IMG/VR virus record: IMGVR_UViG_3300048117_000374
Span: 1-29,865 of that record
From: a virus
Strand: one strand, 5' to 3'
DNA length: 29,865 nucleotides
This document shows, one piece after another, positions 8,501 through 28,956 of this stretch (position 1 is its first letter; every line of letters begins with the position of its first letter). The position numbers and the translations under genes are program-made. A model generated the notes under the pieces. That model was not told where the DNA came from. It saw only the letters and a list, made by a program, of their open reading frames with translations, and searched no databases.

Positions 8501-10427
8501 CACCCGCCGCAGTGGTTGACGTATTTTGAATAGTATATGGTTTTGTACCACCTGAAGGACTTATTAATATAATACCACCTTTAGGATTAGTACAAGTACC
8601 TGTAACTTCAAAACTATAAGTTATCGGACCTTCATCACAACTAACAACACATACGTCACCACTAATTTGTACACCTTGCATCGAAACATTAATATCAACA
8701 CATACCTCTAACCCTACTTCATTACCTTGTTGTAATCTTCCACAACAATCCGTATACGTATAAAAACCATCTGTAATACCTGAAAAACAACCCTCCCCCA
8801 CATTTGAAGTTGGTGTTGGTGTGGGTGTAGGCGTAGGGGTATAACTAGGAGGGACAAAGGGACTTGAAGTTGGTGTTGGTGTGGGTGTAGGCGTAGGGGT
8901 ATAACTAGGAGGAACAAAGGGACTTGAAGTTGGCGTGGGAGTTAGAGTATTTGTGGGAGTAGGTGTAGGAGACAATCTAACTTCAGGTGAAGGTGTTGGT
9001 GTTGGCGTGAGAGTATTTGTAGGGGTAGGTGTGGGTGTAGATTCTTGACATATAATGTCAGTACACTTTATTGGCCCCACTGAAGCAACACTATTATCCC
9101 AATATATTATAGTAACATAAGGTTCTAAAAGTGGTTCATTAATTCTATTATAACACCCATTAACTCCACCTACATTTTCAAATAAATAGCCATTAAAAGG
9201 TGGGCTCGTATATAAATCATTATCAAAATCTATAACATTAAATCTAAATATTTTATTACCTGAACACGCAGAAAAATAATAATATTCATCTAACTCAGAA
9301 ACATTATTTTGACAATCAGTACAATTTTCATAAACGTTTGTTATTTCATGTCCTGATGTTATATTAGTACTTATTAGTACTTGGTCAACTTTATCCGTTT
9401 CACCACCAAAACAGAACGTCTTACTTTCAACGAATTGCGGCGTTATAAATCCAGTTCCAAGCGGGTTACCCCACGTTAACGTTGAAGCACTAAAAGTACT
9501 TTGACCCTGATTTACCCCGTTACAATCATTACCAGATGGTTGAAATTTATATATATTATTAAATGGATTATTAGAAACACAATCGGAACAATCAGAATAC
9601 CAATTTGATACTATGTCGTAATAACCAACACCTAAAGTACCTGAATAGGGTTGTTGAACATTATTAGGCTTTAAACACGGACCCCCCCATATTGAAGAAT
9701 ATGATTCTACCCTATCCCTCATATCACCAGAATATTGCACACCACTCGAATCTGTTATTAAATTACCGTAACAATCATCGGACATTGTAACCCACCCATC
9801 ATATAAACCGTTAAAGTAGTTTCTGGCGTTTGTTGCGAAATAGGGTATTTGTGTATAATATGACCCTAAACCACTTACTAAGTCTGATGTAATAGAACTG
9901 GCATTATTAAAATCATAGTTTAAAACCCCATTATTAGTAATGTGACTATAATCATTTACACTTGTTAGAAAAATAAAATCATACCTATTAGTATCCGCAC
10001 CACCTATTACTTTTGATAAATCATTAAACGTATTTGCACTATAAAAATTAGTACTGTATCTAGGAGATTTAAATGTCCCACTTGGACCTATTACATCAAT
10101 ATAGTTTTGAGCGAAAAATGTTGTATTAATATTAAACGTTGAACCTATATAAACCGCGACTGAAGTATCTGATACCTTACTCCAATATTCACCTGTAACC
10201 ATTTGAGTGTCAAAAGGGATTGTTGCTGAACCTAAATTTGTAGCTTTCCAATATCTTGACCTAAATGACCAAGTTGTATCAGGGTTAGTAAGTAGATGGT
10301 TCTCCGTAAACGCTCTATTTAATCCTGCGGGTGTAGCCGCATCGGGCCAAGCCATATATACGGTAGAACCTGTAGTTGGTGAACCTACAGTCGCTATTTG
10401 TTCTAATTTAAAATATAAAGTCGCCAT
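5550..10427 (-). CDS. Giant mosaic tail fibre/adhesin with SprB-like repeats and Thr-Pro linkers
   Basis: 1625 aa. The ATG at 10427 overlaps the previous gene's stop as TAATG, implying coupled translation. Residues 1-460 are a unique Cys-containing domain ([19 protein letters not shown] near the start). Residues 461-542 are a TPTPTPTP linker with a duplicated 20-aa unit. From about 590 to 1190 there are about seven repeats of 80-95 aa resembling SprB/PKD-type repeats of Bacteroidota surface proteins; the clearest are [16 protein letters not shown] near 800, [14 protein letters not shown] near 880 and [15 protein letters not shown] near 1140, followed by G.Y...(I/V)TD..GC. About 1190-1320 is a domain shared with the neighbouring 988-aa protein. 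About 1320-1356 is a second Thr-Pro linker. The rest is a Cys-rich domain with [14 protein letters not shown], ending [11 protein letters not shown]. Host-surface binding is likely but inferred. Confidence 0.7.
8804..8923 (-). repeat. 60-bp tandem duplication in a Thr-Pro linker
   Basis: Bases 8804-8863 and 8864-8923 are adjacent 60-bp copies with a single difference (g8853 versus a8913). A third copy begins at 8924 but soon diverges. Each encodes 20 residues, [20 protein letters not shown]. Near identity, including third positions, indicates a recent in-frame duplication. Confidence 0.95.
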
Positions 10428-13393
10428 TAACTACAATTGATTTTTACATTTACACCAACGTTTACTGTTAGAGTTTTATTTGTGAATTCGGGGTCGCATC
10501 CTGTGTTACTTACTGTCAAAATATTATTACTGTCTATAGTATAGTTTAAACCACTTTGATATAAATACTGTAACTTATCATTCAACGCAATAATCCAATC
10601 AGTAAATGTCGGGTAATCTTGTCCACCAAGTCCCTCATAAAATTCCTCCTGCACTAAAATTGTTGAGTCTAATCTTACATCAACATACCATTTACTAACT
10701 AAACTGTTTAGTACACAGTCATTAATAGTGTACCCAGATTTATTAATACAACTATTAATACTATTATTTAATATAGTGGGTATAGAACTTATATTAACAT
10801 CACACGTCAATGTTTCGTCAATACAATCATTATCAAATAACTGACCGTAGTATATACATGGAATACAGTCAATAGGTATAATTTCACAACCTCTTTGTCT
10901 TCTCCAAACATGTTTTTGTCTTTGTAAAACATTGTTTACCATTTTCTGACCACCCATCCATATTGTAGAGGCCGGAATCATCTGTTCAACTAATTTTGTC
11001 CAATAATCACCAATACCTAAAGTAAAATCAATCATCTTCTGATAAGTGTATTGATTTGAAGGTATATTTACCGCCGATTCCGATTGTAAATATTTCCAAT
11101 ATATGGACTGTAATGTTGGGTAACTGTTGGCCGCCCCATCACTAATAGTCTGTCTGTTTCGTACATTTATTAATGTATTATAAAACGTTTGAGCGAACTC
11201 GAAAAATGTTTTTTCCTGTGGTAGTGGATTAATAACGGTCCAATCTTTACCTCCAGGGTACGGATAAGGCGATGTTAAACCTGATGATGGAAATGGATAT
11301 CCATAACGTCTAGACATTCTCCATATATCGTAGGTTATACCTTGCGCCATGTTTAAGTATAATTCAACATTTTTAGCGTTAAGTACTAATTTTTCATCAA
11401 ACACCTCATAATACGCATTATACGCACCATCACGATTTCTCCTAATACCTGTTTCAGTATCATCCCATGATTTATTATTATCAATAGTTCTGGTTAACCC
11501 AAAACCAATATTCATATATGGGAACTTTCTAAATCTATCAAAATACTTTTGACCATAAGTAAAAGTCTCTAAAGATGTTTGTATACTAGGGTTAGCCCCT
11601 GTAAATGTTGAATTAGTAATATCAAGTTTTTCAATAGCTCTATGGTCAGGTGTCTCAATATACCAACCCGCACCTTTTTCAAAGAAATATTCATTATTTG
11701 TTACGGGTCTCTTTGGATACCCATACTCATTCATAGGGTAATCCCCTCTTGTAGCATCTGTTTGACTAACATATTTTGACGTAGTGAAACCTGTGTACGT
11801 AACACCTTGTATATTGTAAACTACATTCGGGTCTAAAGCGGGTACATCATCTACTTTTGTACCACCTGACAGTTTTAAGTATTCACCTTCAAATCTTTTT
11901 ACATTTATTGGACCATCAGCGATGTATACTATTTCATTGAACTCAATCAAATCTTTAGGTGCCCCTACCATCCTCATAATTGCCTCAATAGAATGTCTTG
12001 TTCCTTTTGATTTAAATAGATAAGCCGAATTCAGTATCAAATTTCTATAAAATTGAAAATTTAACTGATTAGGTGTCGGGTCATTTTGAAAACCAGGATA
12101 TATAGATTTATTTTTAGTCCCAAATATTGATGTTAAAAAATCTTCGTTAGTTATTGGTGAAATATTTGTATTCCATCCTAAAGTTTGTGCTAAATTTTGT
12201 AGTAATTCTGAAGGTATATCATTTTGAGGAGTATAATGTACTGAATTCATAAAAGATAACGCATCTATGAATTTTTTAGACTCATCAAAACTTCTACCGT
12301 ATAATTGTAAAACTTTTTCAACTTTTTTATCACCCGTATCAAAGTCTTTAAAAGCACCTGTAGTTAAAAATCTAACTATTAAATCAGTTTTATACCTATC
12401 TATTACCTCACCAATTTCACTAACCTGTGTTAAGTAATTGTCAAATCTTAATGTTGATATATCTAAATTCCATACCCCTAATTTAGGCCACGTAACCCTT
12501 TTTTTACGTTTTACGAATTGCCCATCATCGGTCTCTTCAACCATATCAAATATCGCAGTATATGGTGGGTTACTAAATCTATTTAATAAAAAATCTTCAA
12601 TCTCATCAAAATCTTCTTTAAATGTAAATTCAGTATTGAATGATGTAGGTCTTAATATTAGTGTATCTGTTGACGCGGTTAACCCACTAAATGGGTTACC
12701 TTTTACACTTACAGTAACAGTACCCGCAGAAACGTTTTGAGACGCCATAAAATTAACAAATGGATATTCAGTTTCCATATCGTTAACATATAAAGCATAT
12801 TTATTATAATTGGTGGTCATATCCCTTAATGGACTTGTTGGGTATGGTCTAACTGATATGTTACGAGCGGCATTTACTGAATAATCAATATCAAACGGAT
12901 TATCAAATCTGGTAACATCCATAGTGAACGTTGTAATTTGTTCAACACTATCAAATGTTATATTATTAGCAGTATTTGCACTAGAATAAGATGGTAACGA
13001 AACCCTATTTACTTGTATTGAAGCCGGAAAAAAATTAATTATTTTAGTTATAGATGTAGACAGTCTTTTCTGTAATGACCCATAAAGAGCGTAATTAGTA
13101 ACTTGACTTATATCATAGTTTGGATAAACTCTATAATTTTTTATTGCAATCGCTTTAGACTCTTCAATACTACCAACGTCAAGGTCGTTTAAAGATATGG
13201 GATTACTAAAAACACCCGTTTCAAATGTCCTATTAACTTTTTCAACAATATTTGTGGAAAATTCAAAATTACCCTGCGTTAACCCTCCACCATCAACCAC
13301 CTGTAACCCAACTAAATCAGGTGAAAATGATTGGTCAGCACTTGGAGGTGCTGGAGGATAAAAAAACTTTTTTTTATTGTTGTTTGTAGCCAT
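10427..13393 (-). CDS. Baseplate/tail structural protein with P2 gpI-like region
   Basis: 988 aa, start ATG at 13393, two nt after the preceding stop (TAA-AA-ATG), no Shine-Dalgarno. It begins [20 protein letters not shown]. The central region reads like the P2 gpI tail-protein family: [19 protein letters not shown], then [13 protein letters not shown], then [20 protein letters not shown]; the LA..LGW and KGT..SIE...R.VGAP pattern is typical of that family. In P2, gpI sits in the baseplate and helps place the fibres. The last 85 residues or so form a separate module ([16 protein letters not shown], ending KINCS) that recurs inside the next gene. Its place between baseplate-type and fibre-type genes suggests an outer baseplate or fibre-attachment role. 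Family assignment is by eye. Confidence 0.6.
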
Positions 13394-13395
13394 TT

Positions 13396-14304
13396 TTAGT
13401 TGGTTATGTTATTGAAATTTTTACTGAAATCTATGTTATCATCTCTATCTTGTCTAACCTCATATAATAAATCGTTAAATTCATCTCTAATCTCATATAA
13501 GTTATATTGTTTGTATATATTAAGATTACTATCATACATAGTATAAATTCCATCTTCCATACTTTTTGTTTGATTACCATAAAGTGCGATAGCTAACGTA
13601 TCAATATCATGTTCAGCCAATTCAATATCCATACTAATTGGATTAAAGAATGTGTTAGTCATAACAATATTTTGATTAGGTTGACCAATAAATGGTGTCG
13701 CATTTGCCTTATTAGAAGGGGCACTTGAAGGTGATACCGTACAAAATATTAAATCACTTCCCCCATCAACATATCTATATCTTATCGCCTTTTGAGAACT
13801 ATTACTTAAATTAGTCACAACTGGTTCACAATAAAAAGCTGATGTAACAACTCTATAAAAATTAGGTATCTTAGTGCCGTCACTATTTAAATATTCAATA
13901 CGGTAACCAATTAGTCCTTGATTGATAAATCTATTTCGGTACTCTTGTGGTACCCCATTTAAGTCGATGATTATACCCTTAACATTGGGTAATGATGATA
14001 ATACACCACAATCTGTAATAGTGGTTCTTATTTCTACAGGTCTTATATATAATGTGTATATACCTATTTTATTAAATTCTTCAGCTGGAAGTTTTAAGTT
14101 ATATAAACCACCTAATATTTCAACATCGGCATTACCTCCTGTAGTTGAACTGTGGAAATAAGGTGTTAAAACATCTTGGGCGTTCAGTTTTGTTAAAACA
14201 AAATTTGTCGTAACGTCTCTTGATGGAGTATAATTTAAAATTATCTCAACATCTTCTGGTGACATGTCAGCTGGTCTTACTGTTCCGTATGTTCCTAAAG
14301 CCAT
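13396..14304 (-). CDS. Unrecognised structural protein, 302 aa
   Basis: I do not recognise the family. The protein begins MALGTYGTVRPADMSPEDVE and has a beta-rich middle (IYTLYIRPVEIRTTITDCG, then VKGIIIDLNG). Its C-terminus is charged and probably helical (LYEIRDEFNDLLYEVRQDRD). No signal peptide, membrane segment or enzyme motif is visible. The ATG follows the upstream stop after four A residues (TAA-AAAA-ATG), and the next gene starts 2 nt after its stop, so it sits in the middle of a coupled baseplate/tail operon. A baseplate or fibre-connector role is inferred from this position only. Confidence 0.55.
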   Translation of the reverse strand: MALGTYGTVRPADMSPEDVEIILNYTPSRDVTTNFVLTKLNAQDVLTPYFHSSTTGGNADVEILGGLYNLKLPAEEFNKIGIYTLYIRPVEIRTTITDCGVLSSLPNVKGIIIDLNGVPQEYRNRFINQGLIGYRIEYLNSDGTKIPNFYRVVTSAFYCEPVVTNLSNSSQKAIRYRYVDGGSDLIFCTVSPSSAPSNKANATPFIGQPNQNIVMTNTFFNPISMDIELAEHDIDTLAIALYGNQTKSMEDGIYTMYDSNLNIYKQYNLYEIRDEFNDLLYEVRQDRDDNIDFSKNFNNITN

Positions 14305-14308
14305 TTTT

Positions 14309-15391
14309 TTACTCGTTATTATTGTTTATTCTAAAGTAACCATACCCATAAGATATCATGTCACCTAAGTTATCCACCTCTCCAAGTCTTTGTAGTGATT
14401 CAAACCCTGAAAGCTTACCTCTTTCAATAAATATTTCAGATTGTATTTCTGGCGAGTCAACTACGTTAATTAATACTTCTTGTTTAGTAATTGCTGACGC
14501 AACTAACTCATTACTTGTTAAACCCGAAGATTCGGCGATATATAATGTAGTACCATCTAAGTAATCGTAGTATTGAACATTATTAATTGTATAGGAGGTG
14601 TAACCACTCGTTATTTGGTCCACTTTACCAAAAGGTTGACCCCCCTTAACCACTGTTGTGGTCACATCAAATTGAGTATTTCCATATAATTTAAGTTCAG
14701 ATAACCTTGAAGAACTAAACCCACTCAATATAAATGGTACCGTTGTAAAATTATTAGACGTTTGACTTTGTACCGTATTAGAACTATCACCCGTAAAAAT
14801 ATAATCGTAACTAATAGGTATTCCTGACCAACTTCCACCTTGGGGAATAAATGTGACGTTACCATAAGGATTAGTTATTGTTACCCCTGTTGTTGGAACA
14901 TAAACCTTTTTCTCAACTATCGTTTGTCCCCATGGATTATTTTGAGTCAATGTTATAACATAGCTAGTGGTTACATTAGGATAAGTATGTGATAAATACT
15001 GAGGAGCGTTTGACGTTAGTGGTTCACTAAAACCGTCCCCCCAATCGACAATATAGTCAGACAACTTTAAAAATCCTTTAAATTCGTCAGACGTATTAAA
15101 TAACCTTATCGTATTTTGATTAGACGGGTCACCTGATGTTATAAAATTTGATACTACATCTTGCTGTAACGCAAATCCATCAAATGGAGTATAAAAACCG
15201 TAGTTTTCATACGTTTGTCTAAAAACTATTGGTACTGTTAAACCTGTTAATAAACTACTACCATCCGTACCCCCACTTAATATTTGAGTCATACCAGTAT
15301 ATACACCAAAAGTGTTTCCACTAAAGTATTCAGTAATAACGTCACCTTTTATTGATTCGGGTGAAATCTTTATGTAGTATTTCTCTTCCAT
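14309..15391 (-). CDS. PKD-domain-containing tail/baseplate protein
   Basis: 360 aa; its ATG at 15391 overlaps the stop of the previous gene as TAATG. Residues from about 115 to 175 look like a PKD (Ig-like) fold: VDWGDGFSEPL, then LSHTYPNVTTSYVITLTQNN, then VEKKVYVP, matching the WGDG...HTY....Y.ITLT..N..G pattern of the family. The C-terminal part contains ITSGYTSYTINNVQYYDYLD and LGDMISYGYGYFRINNNNE. Ig-like and PKD domains are common decorations of phage tail proteins and often bind carbohydrate or strengthen contacts. Coupling to its neighbours on both sides supports a virion role. The wider family is not recognised. Confidence 0.6.
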   Translation of the reverse strand: MEEKYYIKISPESIKGDVITEYFSGNTFGVYTGMTQILSGGTDGSSLLTGLTVPIVFRQTYENYGFYTPFDGFALQQDVVSNFITSGDPSNQNTIRLFNTSDEFKGFLKLSDYIVDWGDGFSEPLTSNAPQYLSHTYPNVTTSYVITLTQNNPWGQTIVEKKVYVPTTGVTITNPYGNVTFIPQGGSWSGIPISYDYIFTGDSSNTVQSQTSNNFTTVPFILSGFSSSRLSELKLYGNTQFDVTTTVVKGGQPFGKVDQITSGYTSYTINNVQYYDYLDGTTLYIAESSGLTSNELVASAITKQEVLINVVDSPEIQSEIFIERGKLSGFESLQRLGEVDNLGDMISYGYGYFRINNNNE

Positions 15392-16251
15392 TATTGCGGA
15401 TTAACATATTCATACCATTTTATACCGTTTGTAAGTTGTCCCACACGATTTCCTAAACCGTATCCTTGAAACACTTGATACTGATAATTATTCACATCTA
15501 AATCAACCTTGTAATAAAAGTATTCAGTTTTATTAAATTTAAACGTTTCACTCATTTCAGATTGTGGTCGATTAATCATTCTAACAAATTGTCCTGTTTT
15601 GGCGTTAAAAAATTTAGCTGACATATAAAATGTATTGACATCAATATATTCTCTACTTTTTAACCAATAAATAAAATACCCTTCTTTATCACCTATAAAA
15701 TCTAAATTAAAAGTGGGGGTCCTTATTATAACAGGTTTTGGTACTGATGGTGTTCCAATGTCAACTTCTTGTTTTTCACCTTGCTGAGTAGGTATCACCA
15801 ATGTGAAGTATAATCTTTGGTTTTCAGGTTGTGTAGAATCATAAAAGTCTAACTTAAAAAAACTCCTTTTAAATGAATTAGCGTAATAATACATTTCTTT
15901 ATTAGTAAATGAAATTCCACTATATGTTTGGTAAACTGAGGGGTCCACATAATTGTAACTTGAGACCCACATATTAGTATTTGCTGGTGTGGTATTATTA
16001 ACGTCTATGGTCCTATTAAAAAAGAAAAACTCATAAGTCGTACTAGTTTTAGGTTCATTATTAACCGTTAACCACTGAGTATGTGAATATCTAGTAGTCT
16101 CAAAATCCTCCACGGGATTAATGATTTCCTCAAGCACATCATTTTCATACTGTTTAATTAAATCTTCCCTTCCGAAATTATCAAAGTCAATTTCCATAGG
16201 AAGATTAATATACGTATCTTCATTATTAACGGTAAATCTAAATTTATTCAC
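15391..16251 (-). CDS. Unrecognised structural protein, 286 aa, GTG start
   Basis: The start is GTG at 16251, overlapping the previous gene's end by 8 nt (GTGAATAA). An in-frame TAG lies just upstream and the next in-frame ATG is about codon 19, so GTG is the best choice. The protein is rich in aromatic residues and polar strands (TTYEFFFFNRTIDV, then YYANSFKRSFFKLDFYD) and ends IKWYEYVNPQ. No membrane segment or catalytic motif was seen. From its position after the wedge-type genes it is probably a baseplate or tail component. Family unknown. Confidence 0.55.
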   Translation of the reverse strand: MNKFRFTVNNEDTYINLPMEIDFDNFGREDLIKQYENDVLEEIINPVEDFETTRYSHTQWLTVNNEPKTSTTYEFFFFNRTIDVNNTTPANTNMWVSSYNYVDPSVYQTYSGISFTNKEMYYYANSFKRSFFKLDFYDSTQPENQRLYFTLVIPTQQGEKQEVDIGTPSVPKPVIIRTPTFNLDFIGDKEGYFIYWLKSREYIDVNTFYMSAKFFNAKTGQFVRMINRPQSEMSETFKFNKTEYFYYKVDLDVNNYQYQVFQGYGLGNRVGQLTNGIKWYEYVNPQ

Positions 16252-18004
16252 AATTATCTATTATTGGTTGAAAGATTATGTTATTGAAAACGTTATTATT
16301 TTTCATTAGTGGCGTTTGTAAGAATAATACATCAGCAAATGGGTAGTGTTCTCCGTTTAAAAATGGATAATTAACACCGTTACCACTTGAATCAACAAAA
16401 CCGTAAGAGTATATGTCTCTCCATCTCCATTGTTGCTCATAGTTTGAAAAGAATGAGTAGTCTGGTACACCACTTACATCATTTTTATCACCCACTTCAA
16501 TATAGTCTGAATACACTCTTAATTTTACCGAATGGTGTGGATTATACGTATAACCATCAGGTAAATTAATATCCGTATTAGTTTTGAAAACATCAGTATT
16601 AAATGAAAATTTATGTGATATCGGTGAAAGCACAGTTTCTTTTTGGTCAAATTCATTCCACTCACAAACATCACCCTTTAATTCAGTACCGATAGGTAAA
16701 TCTTTATTATAATAAAATCTAATATTTAATCCTGGTGGGATATCCCCTTGTTTATCATAAAAATCAACATCAATATTATCTTTATTATTAAAATTTATTT
16801 TAGACCACCAATCATCCACACTGTTTTCTAAAAAATTAAAACCCCATCCAACTTCTAACCCTTTAGTTGGTTGAATACCGTCAACACGTGGTTTATTAAA
16901 ATAACCAATATAACCTTTATTAATAATGGTAATAAATAATTCAGTTACAGGTCGGTCTAAATTATCCATTAAAGAAATTATATCGATATCTTTATCGAAA
17001 GATACTCCGAATGTTCCCCTACCATCTTTAATAGATATTCTTGAAACCTCATTAGGAGTCAATGCAGAATATTCTAATTTTTTATTGACAGGAAAATTAT
17101 TTTGTTCAAACCCCATTTTAGTTAAATCTACATTTGAAACATCCGTTAAAGTTTTATGTTTTCTAACATAGTACTTAGACATTGTTTCTCCTGAGTTTTT
17201 AGGGTTTATAACACGTTTTAAATTTGACATATATCCGTCACTAATTGTTACCCCAGTAAAACCATAGTTATATACATTAAGAATTTTATCGTCATTTCCA
17301 TATGCTTGGTCACCTAAACTATAAACCTCAAGAAGGTTACTACCATTTATTGGCGTATTTAAATAAATGTAATCCCCCTGTTTTATATTATGTTTATAAC
17401 CGCAATAAAAACTTAACATATTCTTACCGTTCACCACTCGGTTTTTAATTGTGTAGGGTATACCTTCTGAAACTTGAAACGATATATCCGTACCACTTTC
17501 CTCATCAGTATATTTCATTATTTGATTATAATCGTTACTATGTGGATACGTTAGGTAGGTGGACCAATTATAAGTTGATGCGCTCTTACTTTTATATATA
17601 ATATGTCCAGGGACTGCACTTACTCTAAAAAAATTAAATTCATCATACGGTGGGTAACCTGTCCAAACACAATTTGCTAAGACCCCGTAAGCATCTACTA
17701 CAGTCTTAGTCGGGTCAATTAAATATAATTCATTCTCAAACGGTTGATAGTTATTTGTTTTACCTGAAACGATATTATCAAACAGATTAACTATTTTTCC
17801 GGCGATTCTAAACTTAGTCGATATTTGTCTTTCGTGGTCAAATCTTTCCTCTAAATTTAATAAAACAGTTCTATCACCTTCGATAATACTTTTTTTGGTA
17901 TTCTCTATAGGTACTTGGATAGATAAGTCCGTGTCGGGAGCACCTGCGTATCTGTCAGAACCCCTAACAATCCTTATTGTTTGATTATTTTTTTGATTAC
18001 CCAT
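16244..18004 (-). CDS. Probable baseplate wedge-type protein in gp8 position, 586 aa
   Basis: The ATG at 18004 overlaps the end of the 1821-aa gene by 8 nt (ATGGGTAA). It begins MGNQKNNQTIRIVRGSDRYA, is rich in Tyr, Asn and Asp, and is probably mainly beta. Recognisable stretches include VLANCVWTGYPPYDEFNFFR and VGWGFNFLENSVDDWWSKIN. No transmembrane segment is evident. In T4 the order is 6-7-8, and here this gene is third after a gp6-like and a giant gp7-position gene; T4 gp8 is about 330 aa, so this one is much longer. I cannot confirm homology to gp8 from sequence; the assignment is positional. Confidence 0.5.
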   Translation of the reverse strand: MGNQKNNQTIRIVRGSDRYAGAPDTDLSIQVPIENTKKSIIEGDRTVLLNLEERFDHERQISTKFRIAGKIVNLFDNIVSGKTNNYQPFENELYLIDPTKTVVDAYGVLANCVWTGYPPYDEFNFFRVSAVPGHIIYKSKSASTYNWSTYLTYPHSNDYNQIMKYTDEESGTDISFQVSEGIPYTIKNRVVNGKNMLSFYCGYKHNIKQGDYIYLNTPINGSNLLEVYSLGDQAYGNDDKILNVYNYGFTGVTISDGYMSNLKRVINPKNSGETMSKYYVRKHKTLTDVSNVDLTKMGFEQNNFPVNKKLEYSALTPNEVSRISIKDGRGTFGVSFDKDIDIISLMDNLDRPVTELFITIINKGYIGYFNKPRVDGIQPTKGLEVGWGFNFLENSVDDWWSKINFNNKDNIDVDFYDKQGDIPPGLNIRFYYNKDLPIGTELKGDVCEWNEFDQKETVLSPISHKFSFNTDVFKTNTDINLPDGYTYNPHHSVKLRVYSDYIEVGDKNDVSGVPDYSFFSNYEQQWRWRDIYSYGFVDSSGNGVNYPFLNGEHYPFADVLFLQTPLMKNNNVFNNIIFQPIIDNCE

Positions 18005-21000
18005 TTAAGTCAGCATTAAACATATATTTAGTTATGAATAAATTCATTGCACTTTTACCTTTTTTTAATCCAAAGTAATTTTGGAATGGTGAACCCACAC
18101 GATACCCGTCGCCATAATCGCCATCTGGTGGTGGAGTACCCGAAAAGATACCTAATGTTCGATTAAATAAGAATCCTGTTCCAAGTCCATCTTGAGGTCT
18201 GGGATAATTATTAGCCCCATCAAATGTTTCATCTTGGTATTTAGCTGTTATCGCGACTTCTGTTTGCCATGTATTTTCCTCACTACCCCAAACACTTCCT
18301 CCTTCGTATTTCCACCCATAATGTGGTATAATTTGACTACCAGGGTATTTAAAATCACTTGTTATAAAAGGAGATGGCTCATTAAAAGTTAATTGTCCCG
18401 GACCTAATATCCTTCTATCTTCGACTGTACTACCACCAACTGTATTATAAATACTTTTAGTACTACCTGTAAACCATATTCCCATTAAACTTTGATTAAC
18501 TGAAATACTATCATAATAGTTTCCTGATAGATAAGGTAACACCCCAAACTCAGTATTAATAGAAATCATTTGAGCGTAGTCCCCATCGATTCTAGAATCA
18601 GTAAATTGGTTTAGTAGGTTAGATTCCGCGTCCCTTGAAAATAATTTTTGTATTGATGCGTCACCAACACCTAATAAATTTTCTAAGAAATTTGAGTCTA
18701 TCAATCTCGATATTATAAATAAATTTAAAACACCTGATACATCTTGAAAAGATGTTGATTCTATTTCATCAATGATATATCCTTGAAATTCAGGAGTTAA
18801 TAAAATTTCTTTTAAGAAATCAGTTTTAGGTCCTAAATCCATTATAGTTGTCGGTTGAAAAATATTACCCTTGTTAGCACCTATCGTAGCTAATCCACCA
18901 AAAAACCCATAGTTACATTTTTTTGATGGTACAAAATCACCATTATAGAAAGGGGTGGACCTATAAAAGAATGAATTAGTGTCGGTATTGTAATAAAGTG
19001 GTCCACAATTTTTCTTAGTCGTCTCAAGCAACCCACCTTCACCACTTTGAGGGTCACCACAATACTTATAACGTTTTACCTCATTATCAGTATTATAGAA
19101 AGTTCTCTTTTGAAATGACGGCATATATAACGTTCCGTTAATCCAATTGTTTTGGAATGAATGAGCAATTACACCTCTACACGCGGCAAACATAAATTTA
19201 ATTCTAGTTCTCCACTCAAAAAGATATGCAAAATCACCTTTAGACCCAAACAGACTCACAATAAGAGGATTATCCACATAAACATAACAACCCCCTTGTG
19301 TCCTATCAAATTCACTACAATTTGGGTCCACACCAAAAGTATCACCCTCTCCTTTATAACATTTAAGGACAACCAACCCATCACACGTAAAAGTTTGTAA
19401 CACGTCAGGAAGAAAAGCGGTGTCTGGGTCAGACTCTAAATCACCTTGACCACCTGAACTATCGTTAGAAGTATTTGCACCGTCAGCACCTACTAATGTA
19501 CTTTGTCCATTATCACCAATATACCAATAAGCAAACGTTTCATTCAACATAAATGGAAAATCCTGATAAGTTCTTAAATCGGAGTCAAGACCCGTATCTC
19601 TATACGATGAAGTAGGTAACCTATCAGACCTAAATATTAATTGTGTAGGGTCATTTATCTCAATGGTCGGAGTATTTCCACCAGGATTTAATGGGTCTTC
19701 ATTTAACCAATATGATGGTGCAATAGTAAAACCTTTTTGACTATTATCATTACTATCTATTGGATAATTAGGACTTTGATTCGTCCATTGGTATGATGCT
19801 CCATCAATACGTCCCTGACCGTTATTCGTAAGATAAGTACTACTTATTGAATAGACTTTATTTGGTTGTACACCTGAAGTACTTGCAGGAGGATATGTCG
19901 GGGTACTAGAATTAGAATTAACTACTTTACCATCAGGGCAACCCATATTACCAATAGGGGCTGGTGAGGATAAATTACCACCCCATTGTTCACCTAATGA
20001 TGAGTAATAGGCAAATGCCGTTGTCTCAAATGTTGTAAATGAGTTTATTAATGATATACACCAAGTACCAAGACCACCTGAGGTTCCAGGGATAAATGTC
20101 GAACTAACAATCTCAAATGAAATATCTCCGTTTGCTGAGTTATATGAAATAACAGTACCTATTATAAAATTTGAATCATCTAAAGAAAATTTTATAGTTT
20201 CTCCCGCAACATACGGTAGACCCGCACTTATTGTACAACCAGTAGTTGTATTTGGTGTTTGAGGTAATTTAAAATTTTGTGAAGTACAATCTTCATATGC
20301 CGTACCAATGTTAGGAGGAGTAAACAAAAAAGATTTATGAAATAATTTACCATTACTATTACCTATCCCACCATTATTAAATTGGAGTCCAACTAAATTT
20401 TCGTAGTGAGTTTCAGGTGCATAAATATCCGTAGGGTTAGTCGCACCAATAGGTATATTTGGGAAGTAATCACCCTCAAAAACGGTTTGAACATGAGTAC
20501 TAGTTATCGAGTAATTCGTATTACCAAACAACATAGACATATTAAATTTCATCTTTTGTCTTGGGGCGAAGGGGTCAACACCCTTAGTTAGGAAATATAT
20601 TTTTAAATCTTTATATTGTTCAAAATATTCTGTCCATGATAGTGATTGAATAGACATTGAATTGAGTAGTGATACTTGCCTATAACATAATATTTGATTA
20701 ACTTTACCTATCAAATAATTCCATAATATGGACCTAGTTTTGTAAATTTGGTTCGAACTGTATCCCGTCATAATATCAATCGCCTCACCTATCGTAACAC
20801 TTCCGATTACTTGGTGATACTCAAGACCCATTTTAAAATTATATGACAATCCTGAAACAGGTGAGTAGAAATCTATATCAGCATTCTGAGTATTACCATC
20901 AGGTTTCATATATGTTATTGCATTTGTAACCTGAACATAATTAGACGAGTTGTGGGTCATAGTACCCTCAATACTTTGGTACCCGTATTGGTTAATTGTT

Positions 21001-23462
21001 AAACCAGTATTATTAACGTTTTCATCAGGTACCAATTCAGGGTCTACAAAACTTAATAATTGTCCATTATCCATATTGACTTGACCATCAGTAACCATTA
21101 TAAGAGGCATATCTTCATACCGATTTCTAGTAGCGGTTATCGGTGGGTCAGAGACACCATTAGATGCGAATTGGTTGTTTGTAAACTCAACTTGCATACG
21201 ATTTGGTAAATTATTAAAAACTGTATTACCGTCACCATCATCAATATTTTGAAAATATCGTTCCCTTTGATTCATTAAATTTACCGCTTGAGGTACTGTT
21301 ACGTGATAAGGAATTCTTGTTCTAGGGTTACCGGGGGTTGGGTCCTGTAAAGAAATCGGACTTTTATACCACCTATTACTTGGTTGAGGTAAATCATTCG
21401 TACCTGGACCTGAAATTTCAGCGTCAGGGTCATACCCTGAGAATATAACCATGTTGTAATTTTCTGGCGCACCGTCATCACTTGTACCGTTATAACAAGA
21501 GTTACAAATCTGCGTATTAGAACCCGCACCATCTAGTTGGACTCCATTTGGTAGCGTAGAATTCCTACATTCAATTGGTGCGTCATACGCTCCAATACTA
21601 ACAAAATCCGCTAAATTACTTTCGTTGTTATTTGCTAATACCACATTCATATCATCAAGAGTCTCACTCTCGGCGGGAGGTAACGTCGCTTCTTTACAGT
21701 TACAAGCCTCACAATCGGGATAAGTTATCATAGGTAGTGTTAACCTCTTGAATGGGTTATCTTTAGGTAATGGAGTAATTGTTTCTTTTTTACAATCACT
21801 CTTTTTTAATTTTCTACTTAGAAATGCAACAACCTTACAAATACCATAAACTAACTTGTTTATAATCCATAAAACAAAATTAATTATTACCCTAAAAATT
21901 GGATATAGTAACGCTAAAACGTGCATTATAGGTAAAATAACCACAATAATCGGTGTAACGATAGTTAATAGAATATTAAATAAAAAGTACAATAAATCAA
22001 AATTTCGCTGTCCATCATTTGTTGGAAACCTATTATTCTCACTCGCACATGACTTGTCTAAAATTTCTTTTATACCGTAATGTGACGCCCTATTAATACC
22101 GTATTTCCAACGGTCAATATGTGCCGCTGTTGTATATACCTTATTATAACCAAACAAATAAAATGTGTCTTCACATTTTATTGCGGAATCTTTATCATAA
22201 TAATCCGACCAATCTAATGAAAACGAATATGATTTATTTCTATTTATAAAATTGGTATTGGAACCCATATTAGGCGCGGTGCCACCTGTCCAATGTTCTT
22301 TTATATTTGGAATTAAATAATTGGCCCTCATTATTTGAGTTTGTAGTCCCGCCTCATTTTGCCATTTAACTTTAAACCTATACTTAGATTTAGTTGGTAT
22401 ACCGACTGTTGGGTCAACTGAAATAACTCGTTCCCCGAACTCGTTAGTAGTTACATAATCTAAGTTCATCGGTAGGTCAATTAACCAAGCACCGTTATCA
22501 TCTATAACATTACCACCATCCTCTAATTGGTATTGTTCAAGTACTGGGTCACCATTCTCATCTTCTTGTATCGTTTGTCTTATGGCTAAAATCTCTCCAG
22601 GACCTGCAACCATATCACATAGGTTACCCGTATCTTTTTTAGGTCTACAATTGGCTTTGATATATTCATCATCATTTGATGACGTAATTGAACCCATGAA
22701 AGTTGAATGAGGTAAGATTTCAATACCCTGGTCAGATAAATCAAAATCGACCCTAGTTATTCCAACGTCACACATCTCATCTTGTCCCCAAAATGAACTA
22801 ACATCTATATCTTTTATTTCGTGAGCTATCTGTGGTAGTGAGTCAATATTTTCAGAATCTTTAAATAGTTGACCATTAAATTGAGATTTAACCCCTCTAC
22901 CCATTCTAATTAAATCGGAAGGCCTTAATGAAAACTCACCCATATTAGACAGGTCTAAATCCATAACAATTTTTTGACTACCTAACGGTACCCCCACAAT
23001 CATAAAATCACCTGACGCATTGGTTCTTACAGAATACTTATAATACTTTTCATAAACCTGTAAAACTTCTTTACGTGTTAATACATCATCAACCGAAGGG
23101 AACGTCCCCGTAGCATTGTGTCCATAGTACTCATCTTCATAAGGTAAAAGATTATAACGATACCCATCCTCATTTTTAGTGGTTGGTGTTTTATATGGGT
23201 AAAGTGTAGATATTATCGGGTCTTCTTCATCCACACTATCTAAAGGTATAAAAATAGAAATATGGGCGTTAGGTACACCTAACCCCCCATTGGCGATAAC
23301 ACGACCTACAACGACCCCATAGTCGGCACAAAACTGTGTGTATAAATCCTCTTGTCTTAATTTTAAAGACAGAATTTCTAACGAATCAAAATCTTGGTCA
23401 ATTTTAACATTAATATTTCTATCAACACCAGGTTCTGTTCTTATTCTAATTGATTTCGGCAT
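17997..23462 (-). CDS. Giant baseplate-type protein in gp7 position with central hydrophobic segment
   Basis: 1821 aa, start ATG at 23462 after a 71-nt gap, leader TTAAAAACTAATT. Residues about 50-175 resemble a carboxypeptidase-regulatory-like (transthyretin-type) beta domain: VVVGRVIANGGLGVPNAHIS, and later TNASGDFMIVGVPLGSQKIV. Residues 488-550 are strongly hydrophobic (FNILLTIVTPIIVVIL, IFRVIINFVLWIINKLVYG) and end in a basic stretch RKLKKSDCKK, enough for two or three membrane helices. A Cys cluster follows: C584, C587, C589, C632, C653, C656. The remaining 1150 or so residues are beta/Asn/Gly-rich, without long coiled coil, ending ITKYMFNADLNG. It directly follows gp25 and gp6 as gene 7 follows gene 6 in T4, but is nearly twice as long as T4 gp7 (about 1030 aa). 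A wedge role is positional inference; the hydrophobic segment is unexpected. Confidence 0.55.
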   Translation of the reverse strand: MPKSIRIRTEPGVDRNINVKIDQDFDSLEILSLKLRQEDLYTQFCADYGVVVGRVIANGGLGVPNAHISIFIPLDSVDEEDPIISTLYPYKTPTTKNEDGYRYNLLPYEDEYYGHNATGTFPSVDDVLTRKEVLQVYEKYYKYSVRTNASGDFMIVGVPLGSQKIVMDLDLSNMGEFSLRPSDLIRMGRGVKSQFNGQLFKDSENIDSLPQIAHEIKDIDVSSFWGQDEMCDVGITRVDFDLSDQGIEILPHSTFMGSITSSNDDEYIKANCRPKKDTGNLCDMVAGPGEILAIRQTIQEDENGDPVLEQYQLEDGGNVIDDNGAWLIDLPMNLDYVTTNEFGERVISVDPTVGIPTKSKYRFKVKWQNEAGLQTQIMRANYLIPNIKEHWTGGTAPNMGSNTNFINRNKSYSFSLDWSDYYDKDSAIKCEDTFYLFGYNKVYTTAAHIDRWKYGINRASHYGIKEILDKSCASENNRFPTNDGQRNFDLLYFLFNILLTIVTPIIVVILPIMHVLALLYPIFRVIINFVLWIINKLVYGICKVVAFLSRKLKKSDCKKETITPLPKDNPFKRLTLPMITYPDCEACNCKEATLPPAESETLDDMNVVLANNNESNLADFVSIGAYDAPIECRNSTLPNGVQLDGAGSNTQICNSCYNGTSDDGAPENYNMVIFSGYDPDAEISGPGTNDLPQPSNRWYKSPISLQDPTPGNPRTRIPYHVTVPQAVNLMNQRERYFQNIDDGDGNTVFNNLPNRMQVEFTNNQFASNGVSDPPITATRNRYEDMPLIMVTDGQVNMDNGQLLSFVDPELVPDENVNNTGLTINQYGYQSIEGTMTHNSSNYVQVTNAITYMKPDGNTQNADIDFYSPVSGLSYNFKMGLEYHQVIGSVTIGEAIDIMTGYSSNQIYKTRSILWNYLIGKVNQILCYRQVSLLNSMSIQSLSWTEYFEQYKDLKIYFLTKGVDPFAPRQKMKFNMSMLFGNTNYSITSTHVQTVFEGDYFPNIPIGATNPTDIYAPETHYENLVGLQFNNGGIGNSNGKLFHKSFLFTPPNIGTAYEDCTSQNFKLPQTPNTTTGCTISAGLPYVAGETIKFSLDDSNFIIGTVISYNSANGDISFEIVSSTFIPGTSGGLGTWCISLINSFTTFETTAFAYYSSLGEQWGGNLSSPAPIGNMGCPDGKVVNSNSSTPTYPPASTSGVQPNKVYSISSTYLTNNGQGRIDGASYQWTNQSPNYPIDSNDNSQKGFTIAPSYWLNEDPLNPGGNTPTIEINDPTQLIFRSDRLPTSSYRDTGLDSDLRTYQDFPFMLNETFAYWYIGDNGQSTLVGADGANTSNDSSGGQGDLESDPDTAFLPDVLQTFTCDGLVVLKCYKGEGDTFGVDPNCSEFDRTQGGCYVYVDNPLIVSLFGSKGDFAYLFEWRTRIKFMFAACRGVIAHSFQNNWINGTLYMPSFQKRTFYNTDNEVKRYKYCGDPQSGEGGLLETTKKNCGPLYYNTDTNSFFYRSTPFYNGDFVPSKKCNYGFFGGLATIGANKGNIFQPTTIMDLGPKTDFLKEILLTPEFQGYIIDEIESTSFQDVSGVLNLFIISRLIDSNFLENLLGVGDASIQKLFSRDAESNLLNQFTDSRIDGDYAQMISINTEFGVLPYLSGNYYDSISVNQSLMGIWFTGSTKSIYNTVGGSTVEDRRILGPGQLTFNEPSPFITSDFKYPGSQIIPHYGWKYEGGSVWGSEENTWQTEVAITAKYQDETFDGANNYPRPQDGLGTGFLFNRTLGIFSGTPPPDGDYGDGYRVGSPFQNYFGLKKGKSAMNLFITKYMFNADLNG
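21495..21713 (-). other. Cysteine cluster within the giant protein
   Basis: Residues 584-656 hold six Cys: DCEACNC (C584, C587, C589), then IEC (C632), then ICNSC (C653, C656). The two close pairs could bind zinc or form disulfides. It lies just after the hydrophobic segment, which itself ends in a Lys-rich, Cys-containing stretch. Confidence 0.4.
21813..22001 (-). other. Encoded membrane-like hydrophobic segment in the giant protein
   Basis: This stretch encodes residues 488-550 of the 1821-aa protein. It is about 60 residues dominated by Ile, Leu, Val and Phe with two prolines (TP.., LP..) and short polar breaks, followed by a Lys/Arg-rich end. By composition it could form two or three transmembrane helices or a helical hairpin. 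Confidence 0.7.
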
Positions 23463-25938: not shown

Positions 25939-27645
25939 TTAACCTTCACATGCAACACATTGTAAATCATTTAGATTTAACTTTTTCCTTGCAAATGCCT
26001 GTGCCGAATTCATAGAATGTTGGTAATATAAAGTTTTAACCCCCAACTTCCACGAGTCAATAAGTAATTTATTAACATCTTTAGTCGGCATCTCAGGTGA
26101 TACCATTAAGTTTAGAGACTGTGATTGGTCAATAAAATCTTGTCTAATTGCCGCCTGATTAATAATCGATGATTGGTTAATCTCAGCAAAAGTTCTAAAG
26201 ACATCTTTTTGTTCGTCACTTAGGAAGTCTAAGTGTTGTACTGACCCATCAGCCTTTTTTATACTATCCCAAGTCTCTTTATTATCTCGACCCATAGTGT
26301 CTAATAATTCTTTCAACACTGGATTTTTTATAGTTACCTTCATCTTAGCAACATCCTTAACATAACAGTTAGACCAAATTGGTTCAATAGATTGTGATAC
26401 CTGACCAAGAATAAATGCTGATGACGTAGTCGGAGCGACCGCATTAAGTGTTACGTTTCTTCTACCATAACCTTTTAGATATTCAGGTTCCCCAAATATT
26501 TCAGCTAACTCCTCGGATGCTTTATATGATTTATCTTTAATAGTTTTAAACACCTCAACGTTAAGTTTAGCGGTTTCTCTGGTATCAAAAGCCAACCCTT
26601 TTGATTGTAATAATGAGTGCCAACCTAAAACACCTAAACCAAGAGCTCTTTGTCTTTTAGCGAAGTTATAAGCTTTTTCCATATAAAGAAACGCCATTTT
26701 ACCTTCTCTAGTACCATTGTCTCTTAATTCCTCTAATTTATTACAATATTCAGTAACTACTGCGTCTAAGAAATAAACCATAGTTTCAACAGCATCGGTA
26801 TCTTTCCACTCATCGTAGTGTAACACATTCATTGAAGATAATACACAAACGAATGATTCATCTTCAGAGTTATGTAGAGCTATCTCAGAACAAAGATTAG
26901 AGTTATAAATTTTAGCCCCTTTATCTTGGTAAACTTTAGGTGCATTATTATTCATCGTGTCATGAAACATAATATATGGGTAACCAATTTCACCTCTTCT
27001 TTGGATTACTTTTGCCCATATTTTTCTTTTCTCATCGTCACCTGCAATCATTTCTTCCATAAATTTATCAGTCACTGTAACTGCGTGTGTTAAATCTTGG
27101 ATTGAAGCCCCTTCTGTACCAATCTCTAAGAACTCCATAATATCTGGATGTTCAACGGGTAAGTAAGGTGAGAAACGACCTCTTCTTGTCGCCCCTTGTG
27201 AAATATTATCAACAACACTCTGAAATAAGTTCATGAAGTGAACCGCACCAGGAGCATGTCCATTGTCAGTTATCTTAGCTCCACGACCTCTAATGTTACC
27301 GAAGTACCCTGAGGTACCACCACCCATTTTACTCATTTCTCCAACTTCAGCTTGAGTAAATAATATTGATTCTATGTTATCGCTAACATTAGAACCAAAA
27401 CAACTTACAGGTAAACCTCTAACTTTACCAAAATTTGCCCATACAGGTGATGATAACGAATACCATCCTTTACTCATATAGTCGTAAAATTTTTCAGCAA
27501 ACCCTTCTTTACCTAAAAGTTTTTCTGCATGTTGTGCAATTGTTTTTATTCTATCTAAAGGTTCTTCACCTTCACTTAAATAACCTCTACGAAGAAACGT
27601 TATTGATTCTTCATTAATCCAATTAAAAGGTTTTCTATTTTTCAT
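25939..27645 (-). CDS. nrdA: Class I ribonucleotide reductase large subunit, short form without ATP-cone
   Basis: 568 aa, reduces ribonucleoside diphosphates to deoxy forms for phage DNA synthesis, with the radical supplied by NrdB. Visible active-site residues: first redox Cys C82 (LPVSCFGSN); the catalytic motif N250-L-C252-S-E254; second redox Cys C267 (FVCVLSSMN); the radical-transfer pair Y540-Y541 (TLYYQHSMNS); and the C-terminal shuttle C563-x-x-C566 (LQCVACEG, the last residues). The APTTSSAFILGQVSQSIEP stretch is the usual phosphate-binding region. Compared with E. coli or T4 NrdA (about 755-760 aa) it lacks the N-terminal ATP-cone and some 190 residues overall, yet all catalytic parts remain. 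Start ATG at 27645 lies 30 nt after nrdB. A terminator follows. Confidence 0.95.
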   Translation of the reverse strand: MKNRKPFNWINEESITFLRRGYLSEGEEPLDRIKTIAQHAEKLLGKEGFAEKFYDYMSKGWYSLSSPVWANFGKVRGLPVSCFGSNVSDNIESILFTQAEVGEMSKMGGGTSGYFGNIRGRGAKITDNGHAPGAVHFMNLFQSVVDNISQGATRRGRFSPYLPVEHPDIMEFLEIGTEGASIQDLTHAVTVTDKFMEEMIAGDDEKRKIWAKVIQRRGEIGYPYIMFHDTMNNNAPKVYQDKGAKIYNSNLCSEIALHNSEDESFVCVLSSMNVLHYDEWKDTDAVETMVYFLDAVVTEYCNKLEELRDNGTREGKMAFLYMEKAYNFAKRQRALGLGVLGWHSLLQSKGLAFDTRETAKLNVEVFKTIKDKSYKASEELAEIFGEPEYLKGYGRRNVTLNAVAPTTSSAFILGQVSQSIEPIWSNCYVKDVAKMKVTIKNPVLKELLDTMGRDNKETWDSIKKADGSVQHLDFLSDEQKDVFRTFAEINQSSIINQAAIRQDFIDQSQSLNLMVSPEMPTKDVNKLLIDSWKLGVKTLYYQHSMNSAQAFARKKLNLNDLQCVACEG

Positions 27646-27675
27646 ATTATTGTTTTATTATTGTTTTGTTTCTTT

Positions 27676-28956
27676 TTAAAATAAGTCGTTTGACGTTATT
27701 GATTTTTGTTTCTTACTATAGTTAATACTTCTTTTATTGAAAAAATCAGTATGTTTGGTCGTTAAAATCTCATCATCAAACCACTCTGTAGTTTCTAATA
27801 ATGTATCATTAGTTTCGAATATACTGTCAACACCTATAGAATTCAAAGATACATTAAATCTATATTTAATGAACTCCATTGTTTGTTTTTTAGTTAAGAA
27901 ATCTAAATCACCTTTTTCAAAAATCCAATTAACCACTTCAGTCTCAGCCTCGTAAGCCTCTTTAGTTGCAATAATTAAATCTTCAACTAACTGAGGTGTC
28001 CACCATTCAGGGTTTTCTTTTTTAATTAAATTAACTAACTCAAACCCAAATTCAGCATGAATATTTTCTTCTTTAGATGTCGCCTCAACCGCGTTACTAA
28101 TACCCTTTAATTTGTTTTTATGTTTATTAAATGACATAATAACTAAAAATTGTGAGAATAACGAAACGTTTTCAACAAACATCGAGAATAAAACTATAGA
28201 CTCAAAATACTCTTTATCGTCAACTGATTTTGAATTTGAAATCGCTTTCTCTAAATATTTAATTCTCCTTCTCACTTGTGGTACTTCTAATAAATTTTCA
28301 AATTCATTATTAAGACCTAATAGTTGTATTAAGTGTGAATATGCGTCTGCGTGTCTTACTTCCGATTCCGCAAATGTCGCACCGACATTACCAATTTCAG
28401 GTTTTGGCATCCTCTTATAAATGTCACCCCAAAATGATTTAACTGCAACTTCAATTTGTGAAATTGCTAACATCGCTCTTTCAACTGCCGATTTTTCTTT
28501 TTCGTTTAAATGTACTTTGTAATCTTGGATATCTGACGTATAATTAAATTCAGTGTGTACCCAGTATGAATGTCTAATTGCGTCAACATACTCATTTAAA
28601 TTAGGGTATTCGTAAGGTTTAAGATTAATTCTTTTTGAAAAGATGTTAGGTTGGTTCTTAGAACGATAAATAATGTATTCTTTGGCAACGTCATTTAAAC
28701 CGTTATCCATTAACTTATTTTCAACCATATCATGAATTTCATCTACGTTAGGAATTCTTTCTTTATTACCTCTGAAAAGTCCTTTTGTTGTGAGTCTAGC
28801 AATTTTTTCAGCCATACCCTCATCAACTTTATCAATACTTTTCATGGCATTTAAAATAGCCATTTCAATCTTTTCAGATTTAAAAACTACTTTATCTCCA
28901 CTTCTCTTTATTACGTAACGAATGTCTTTTGAGACACTATCTATTAGATTGTCCAT
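27676..28956 (-). CDS. nrdB: Ribonucleotide reductase small subunit with N-terminal ATP-cone
   Basis: 426 aa, longer than usual (about 320-390) because of an N-terminal ATP-cone at residues 10-100 (YVIKRSGDKVVFKSEKIEMA, then IPNVDEIHDMVENKLMD, then AKEYIIYR). The rest is the ferritin-like radical-generating fold. Likely metal ligands by spacing against E. coli NrdB: E169 (D84 position), E199 and H202 (ESEVRHADAY), E262 (MFVENVS), E297 and H300 (KEENIHAEFG). Y206 is at the position of the radical Tyr122. The C-terminal tail, ending SITSNDLF, would dock to NrdA. With the cone absent from NrdA, dATP/ATP control is expected to act through this subunit, as described for Leeuwenhoekiella blandensis NrdB. 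Whether the cofactor is diiron-tyrosyl or dimanganese cannot be read from sequence. Confidence 0.95.
   Translation of the reverse strand: MDNLIDSVSKDIRYVIKRSGDKVVFKSEKIEMAILNAMKSIDKVDEGMAEKIARLTTKGLFRGNKERIPNVDEIHDMVENKLMDNGLNDVAKEYIIYRSKNQPNIFSKRINLKPYEYPNLNEYVDAIRHSYWVHTEFNYTSDIQDYKVHLNEKEKSAVERAMLAISQIEVAVKSFWGDIYKRMPKPEIGNVGATFAESEVRHADAYSHLIQLLGLNNEFENLLEVPQVRRRIKYLEKAISNSKSVDDKEYFESIVLFSMFVENVSLFSQFLVIMSFNKHKNKLKGISNAVEATSKEENIHAEFGFELVNLIKKENPEWWTPQLVEDLIIATKEAYEAETEVVNWIFEKGDLDFLTKKQTMEFIKYRFNVSLNSIGVDSIFETNDTLLETTEWFDDEILTTKHTDFFNKRSINYSKKQKSITSNDLF

Follow-up and report, generated by a model that had tools for sequence, protein, structure and literature searches.

A phage class Id ribonucleotide reductase with an ATP-cone on its radical-generating subunit, kept under selection in a marine phage clade

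The stretch of DNA analysed here (hereafter the window; 29.9 kb, positions 1 to 29,865) comes from the IMG/VR virus record IMGVR_UViG_3300048117_000374, which is a fragment. On the minus strand, it encodes a DnaB-like phage helicase, nrdB (28956 to 27676), nrdA (27645 to 25939), gp25-like and gp6-like baseplate wedge proteins and large tail-region proteins, in this order (Table 1). A preliminary description, made from the letters alone, gave exact coordinates for nrdB; the strand, which it did not state, is minus. Searches of the window for tRNAs and against Rfam found none. Six ORFs at 10427–23462 (minus strand; 286–1821 aa) have no match in PHROGs, the five of them scanned against Pfam gave no match and the 1821-aa ORF has no relative in annotated phages. 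These ORFs probably encode components of the tail or baseplate in a myovirus group that has yet to be described.

Table 1. Features of the nrdB–nrdA locus, with window coordinates and supporting evidence.
Feature	Coordinates	Strand	Evidence
nrdB, class Id (NrdBi) radical-generating subunit, 426 aa, N-terminal ATP-cone	27676..28956	-	Pfam PF00268 and PF03477; 5OLK full-length match, E 8.4e-158; Foldseek top match 5OLK
ATP-cone of NrdB, residues 14–101	28654..28917	-	PF03477, E 1.9e-21 at exactly these bases; residues mapped to L. blandensis NrdB; conservation
NrdB four-helix-bundle core, residues 109–383, class Id signature	27808..28632	-	PF00268; L. blandensis mapping; no or almost no variation among 249 sequences
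nrdA, class Id (NrdAi) catalytic subunit, 568 aa, without ATP-cone	25939..27645	-	TIGR02510, 753.7 bits; PF02867/PF00317 only; motifs; 6DQX alpha chain, E 4.7e-200
nrdB–nrdA gap, 30 bp, beta before alpha	27646..27675	-	Gene coordinates

Cellular Bacteroidota have the same gene pair, which might suggest a cellular host operon on a contig wrongly labelled as viral. We give this reading almost no credence and rejected it: the baseplate wedge genes lie directly downstream of nrdA and the phage DnaB-like helicase upstream of nrdB, all on the same strand; near relatives are present on at least 80 IMG/VR contigs, and ten of those searched, 36–270 kb in length, have one pair each; and the NrdB clade of the window contains no cellular sequence.

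In a Pfam profile search, NrdB matched the ATP-cone family PF03477 (E 2.1e-18; 67.1 bits vs. a cut-off of 25.8) and, downstream of it, PF00268 (E 1.4e-59), which bears out the preliminary claim of a full ATP-cone at residues 10–100. A chance cone match is ruled out by the E-value and by the conservation and selection described below. The VxKR motif of the cone reads V15-I-K17-R18, and the nucleotide-site positions, whose inspection the preliminary description had proposed, hold V15, K17, R18, F25 and K29. Compared with the NrdB of Leeuwenhoekiella blandensis, K11, R12, F19 and K23 correspond to K17, R18, F25 and K29, and D73, E76, M80, K89, I92, I93 and R95 correspond to D76, E79, M83, K92, I95, I96 and R98, which are cone–cone contact or structural positions. 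The residues in contact within the L. blandensis NrdB tetramer (β4) are Met80, Ile92, Ile93, Asp73 and Lys89, with Asp73–Arg95 as an internal pair (PMC5794259, PMC8350387), and the window NrdB retains them as M83, I95, I96, D76, K92 and R98. The Asp76 of the published account is Glu76/Asp77 in the numbering used here, with E79/N80 as window equivalents, and N80 thus stands in place of Asp77, beside the salt-bridge patch. In the NrdR of S. coelicolor, V48, K50, E56 and K62 were found by mutation to be important for nucleotide binding (PMC12176259). Aligned by eye, the window cone has V15, K17 and K29 at the equivalent positions and V23 at that of the Glu; the latter is Ala in L. blandensis NrdB, which nonetheless binds two dATP.

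The core carries the metal ligands E169, E199, H202, E262, E296/E297 and H300 (E170, E200, H203, E263, E297/E298 and H301 in L. blandensis), together with K173, W176 and an off-site Y206 with T293. Class Id is marked by Glu as the N-terminal metal ligand, a conserved Trp and a Lys three residues before the Trp (PMC6754362), and all three are found in the window NrdB as E169, W176 and K173. Among 249 full-length sequences, this Glu and the Trp are invariant and the Lys occurs in 248, the class Id metal-site residues and the Lys/Trp signature being kept save for one Lys and one ligand Glu. By its sequence, the window pair is a class Id (NrdBi/NrdAi) ribonucleotide reductase. The cofactor expected of this class is Mn2(IV,III) without a tyrosyl radical; the ligands and the off-site Tyr/Thr pair are present in the window NrdB.

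Among solved structures, 5OLK, the L. blandensis protein, comes closest to NrdB over its full length, and it was also the best PDB match of the AlphaFold model in Foldseek. The model has a mean pLDDT of 81.7, with a confident cone (about 73–92 over residues 11–100), and its rmsd to 5OLK is 11.7 Å over the whole chain and 1.4–1.8 Å for the core alone, a gap that points to another orientation of cone and core in the model rather than another fold. The two class Id enzymes share the order of cone and core, the length of NrdB (427 aa in L. blandensis vs. 426 aa), a cone-less NrdA, the metal-site and Lys/Trp signature, the nucleotide-site residues and most cone-contact residues (PDB 5OLK; PMC5794259, PMC8350387). 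The window protein differs in being phage-encoded, in its divergence from L. blandensis NrdB (42% identity in the cone, 64% in the core) and in having His for Gln at L. blandensis position 72 and Asn for Asp at position 77. The preliminary description's comparison with the L. blandensis type, with the cone on NrdB, is thus upheld by the whole-length match to 5OLK and by an NrdA without a cone.

This NrdA, described beforehand as a 568-aa protein with C82 as its first active-site Cys and no cone, has just the all-alpha and barrel domains (PF00317/PF02867) in Pfam, with PF03477 absent, and scores above the curated cut-off of TIGR02510 'NrdE-prime' (602 bits). Its motifs include C82, NLCSE at 250, LYYQ at 539 and a C-terminal CVACEG at 563 (CxxC 563–566), and its best PDB match is the 6DQX alpha chain. 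A separate cone-bearing NrdA elsewhere in the genome, which the preliminary description had named as the observation that would speak against it, was sought in the window and, because the record is a fragment, in the ten longer relatives of 36–270 kb; none was found. A single cone and a single NrdA are present in the window and in each of the ten relatives, and in those of 162 and 270 kb the NrdB cone is the only cone. A cone HMM matched no NrdA ORF of the collected loci. Overlong class Id NrdA frames (821–1175 aa) occur in Salicola phage SCTP-2, two viral contigs and Paenibacillus pini (L165, L175, L178 and L110) and possibly contain inteins or insertions. On a 160-kb viral contig (L267), a 747-aa ORF with its own ATP-cone (plus frame, from base 683) lies upstream of a cone-bearing class Id NrdB and looks like an anaerobic NrdD. 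Cone-bearing class Id NrdB/NrdA pairs are also present in many Patescibacteria MAGs (L093, L097, L102, L105, L112 and L126), in which the alignment to the window NrdA ends before the C-terminal CxxC.

For the conservation of the cone, 169 distinct cone-bearing NrdBs were compared (129 viral and 40 cellular), gathered by similarity to chosen seeds, and these counts do not measure prevalence. K17, R18, E79, I95 and R98 are the same in every one of the 169, the 129 viral proteins retain the core nucleotide-site residues and, in the clade of the window, the nucleotide-site positions are invariant. Selection was assessed in 104 distinct sequences with cores more than 80% identical to that of the window, with 254 pairs of usable synonymous divergence. 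For the cone the median omega was 0.038, and for the core 0.028; these estimates come from pairs that are related and not independent, and whose synonymous sites are close to saturation. For cone and core, pN/pS was 0.086 and 0.058, respectively, vs. 0.70 for the variable N-terminal tail of NrdB, part of which may be untranslated. By these ratios, the cone is under strong purifying selection in the clade of the window. It is much less conserved than the core, both within the clade (0.91 vs. 0.44 bits) and in its identity to L. blandensis. The most conserved cone segments of the viral clade are helices 3 and 4 (0.27 and 0.36 bits; helices 1 and 2 have 1.1). The contact positions known from the literature, located in helices 3 and 4, are more conserved in the clade than random cone positions (p 0.003). 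The position of L. blandensis Q72 is Gln in 40 of 40 cellular cone-NrdBs and His in 109 of the 129 viral ones. In the window it is H75, encoded at about 28734 (minus strand), and the change from Gln to His might tune the nucleotide site.

In the tree, cone-bearing phage NrdBs fall into at least two lineages with cellular sequences between them. One is the all-viral clade of the window (100/100), which sits on a long stem of 0.48–0.52 changes per site; the other groups Bacillota with Staphylococcus and Sporosarcina phages (100/99). Cultured phages with a cone-NrdB/NrdA pair are present in GenBank, where they are annotated merely as encoding reductase subunits: the Staphylococcus Silviavirus Romulus, Mammaliicoccus phage MSShimriz1, Sporosarcina phage Lietuvens and Salicola phage SCTP-2 all encode a class Id cone-NrdB followed by NrdA on the same strand, as in the window. 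Unlike the window, Romulus, MSShimriz1 and Lietuvens belong to the lineage with Bacillota sequences, and the cones of Lietuvens and Romulus are about 30% identical to that of the window. The SCTP-2 NrdB forms a long branch, and a scan seeded with it returned a single weak relative. We also found 59 distinct viral class Id NrdBs without a cone, among them those of Rhizobium phages such as RHph_TM39, of marine phages of about 115 kb and of a viral locus designated L253, which share with the window the metal-site signature and the operon order. No cone was found anywhere in 11 records of such cone-less phages. The L253 NrdB (3522–4508) is 75% identical to a Polaribacter cone-NrdB and starts directly at the core, and the NrdBs of L253 and L254 look like products of clean domain loss. 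Phages of class Id thus both keep and lose the NrdB cone. In all 123 viral cone-bearing loci in which both genes could be scored, nrdB precedes nrdA, an order reported as the rule for cone-bearing beta subunits (PMC9669993); given that cone-less viral loci have it too, it does not tell the two groups apart.

Direct evidence covers the domains and their key residues, the persistent selection on the cone and the lack of any other cone, and the reading that we find probable is a phage class Id reductase with an ATP/dATP switch on NrdB of the L. blandensis type. NrdB would carry a dimanganese site and pass a radical to the cone-less NrdA, which would reduce NDPs to dNDPs for phage DNA synthesis. 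The NrdB cone is expected, from the homologue, to bind ATP or dATP. With ATP in the cone, NrdB would be a dimer and form an active α2β2 complex; with dATP, the cones would pair via their last two helices, yielding a NrdB tetramer that holds NrdA unproductively. In L. blandensis, where the Ki for dATP is 20 µM (PMC8350387), the nucleotide causes this cone–cone pairing, and the resulting β4 gives inactive α2β4 or α4β4 complexes (PMC5794259, PMC8350387), which would also be the dATP state of the phage enzyme. For the latter, we extrapolate from the homologue that it binds nucleotide, forms the tetramer, is inhibited and has a manganese cofactor.

The preliminary description had doubted that a phage would keep dATP inhibition during replication; the lineage does keep the domain and its key residues, while inhibition itself lies beyond what sequence can tell. 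The class I reductase of phage T4, which belongs to another subclass, carries a cone on the catalytic subunit. That cone can bind dATP and the enzyme is not inhibited (PMC3267527), and a conserved cone therefore does not imply inhibition. By this precedent, the cone of the window could fold and bind nucleotide while being uncoupled from inhibition, and be kept for ATP activation, stability or assembly. A virus benefits from having no shut-off during replication, and the cone-less phages of the same class agree with such an uncoupling; however, the tetramer-contact positions of helices 3 and 4 rank with the best conserved cone positions of the clade, and a cone without function should degenerate or be lost, given that some phages do without any, including L253 with its clean N-terminus so near to a Polaribacter NrdB. 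We regard uncoupling as rather unlikely, though clearly less so than a cone that works via an assembly other than β4, such as alpha-containing rings or a complex with a further protein, from the phage or its host. The oligomer driven by the cone varies among reductases (PMC11226230), the long viral stem gives room for change and N80 replaces Asp77 near the salt-bridge patch, but the known contact residues D76, K92, M83 and I95 are kept, and we consider another assembly very improbable.

The cone-on-NrdB arrangement is itself already known, and the novelty implied by the preliminary description was overstated, because NrdBi proteins with N-terminal cones were reported in 2018 to be encoded by viruses and several bacterial phyla, Flavobacteriales predominating (PMC5794259). 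In the literature on phage reductases, we found only this general statement on cone-bearing NrdBs in phages, PMC3653736 being silent on the cone. What is new is the evidence that the cone of a widespread clade of marine phages has been under lasting selection, set against the cone-less phages of that subclass. Activity control is often missing from viral reductases: viral clades without cones have been noted (PMC9669993), and T4 has a cone without inhibition (PMC3267527). It seems to us about evenly balanced whether a widespread marine phage lineage keeps, against this viral trend, a functional off-switch, operated by dATP, on the radical subunit, with limited dNTP overproduction benefiting the phages and H75 perhaps retuning the set point. 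The data place a class Id enzyme, of a putative manganese type, in a widespread marine phage group, and, with the cone under selection beside cone-less phages of the same subclass, nature supplies matched pairs in which one can ask under what conditions feedback inhibition is worthwhile in infection.

A Bacteroidota origin, as the preliminary description had suggested, fares differently for the gene and for its carrier. The NrdB phylogeny, which it had also called for, recovers the purely viral clade, and this clade groups loosely (85/91) with sequences from Bacteroidota, one Paceibacterota MAG and gammaproteobacterial MAGs. A Bacteroidota-constrained tree scored above the quick free tree, which indicates that the quick search was incomplete, and the careful tree, from which the long-branched Salicola phage SCTP-2 was left out, leaves the sister group open. 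Bacteroidota as sister group or donor of the phage nrdB are thus neither rejected nor established by these trees.

For the host, the evidence lies outside nrdB. In the 162-kb relative, whose NrdB is 93% identical to that of the window, Shine–Dalgarno-like sites precede 7% of genes, near the shuffled expectation, as is the case for two Flavobacteriia phages (2–4%); the share is far higher for a Pelagibacter phage (50%) and a T-even phage (58%). The Bacteroidota-type promoter motif TTG-N17-23-TAnnTTTG occurs 15 times in intergenic regions of this relative vs. 2.9 expected (0 of 100 shuffles reached this number); in the window by itself, two were found vs. 1.8 expected. The two known Flavobacteriia phages are without enrichment of the motif, which serves as support rather than as a test. 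SprB repeats are known from the gliding adhesin of Flavobacteriia. A 1625-aa tail-region protein of the window (5550–10427, minus strand) contains such repeats (PF13573, E 3e-19) together with Thr-Pro-rich linkers. The repeats occur in each of the seven window-type records tested, and eight other phage records and 14 control genomes have none; the protein may serve in receptor binding, as a part derived from the host or mimicking it. A DNA search with the terminase gene found nothing, and the closest baseplate and terminase relatives among annotated phages are those of Flavobacterium phage immuto (26–27% identity). Taken together, Shine–Dalgarno-like sites at chance level, the promoter motif, the SprB repeats and the immuto relatives make a Bacteroidota host likely for this phage.
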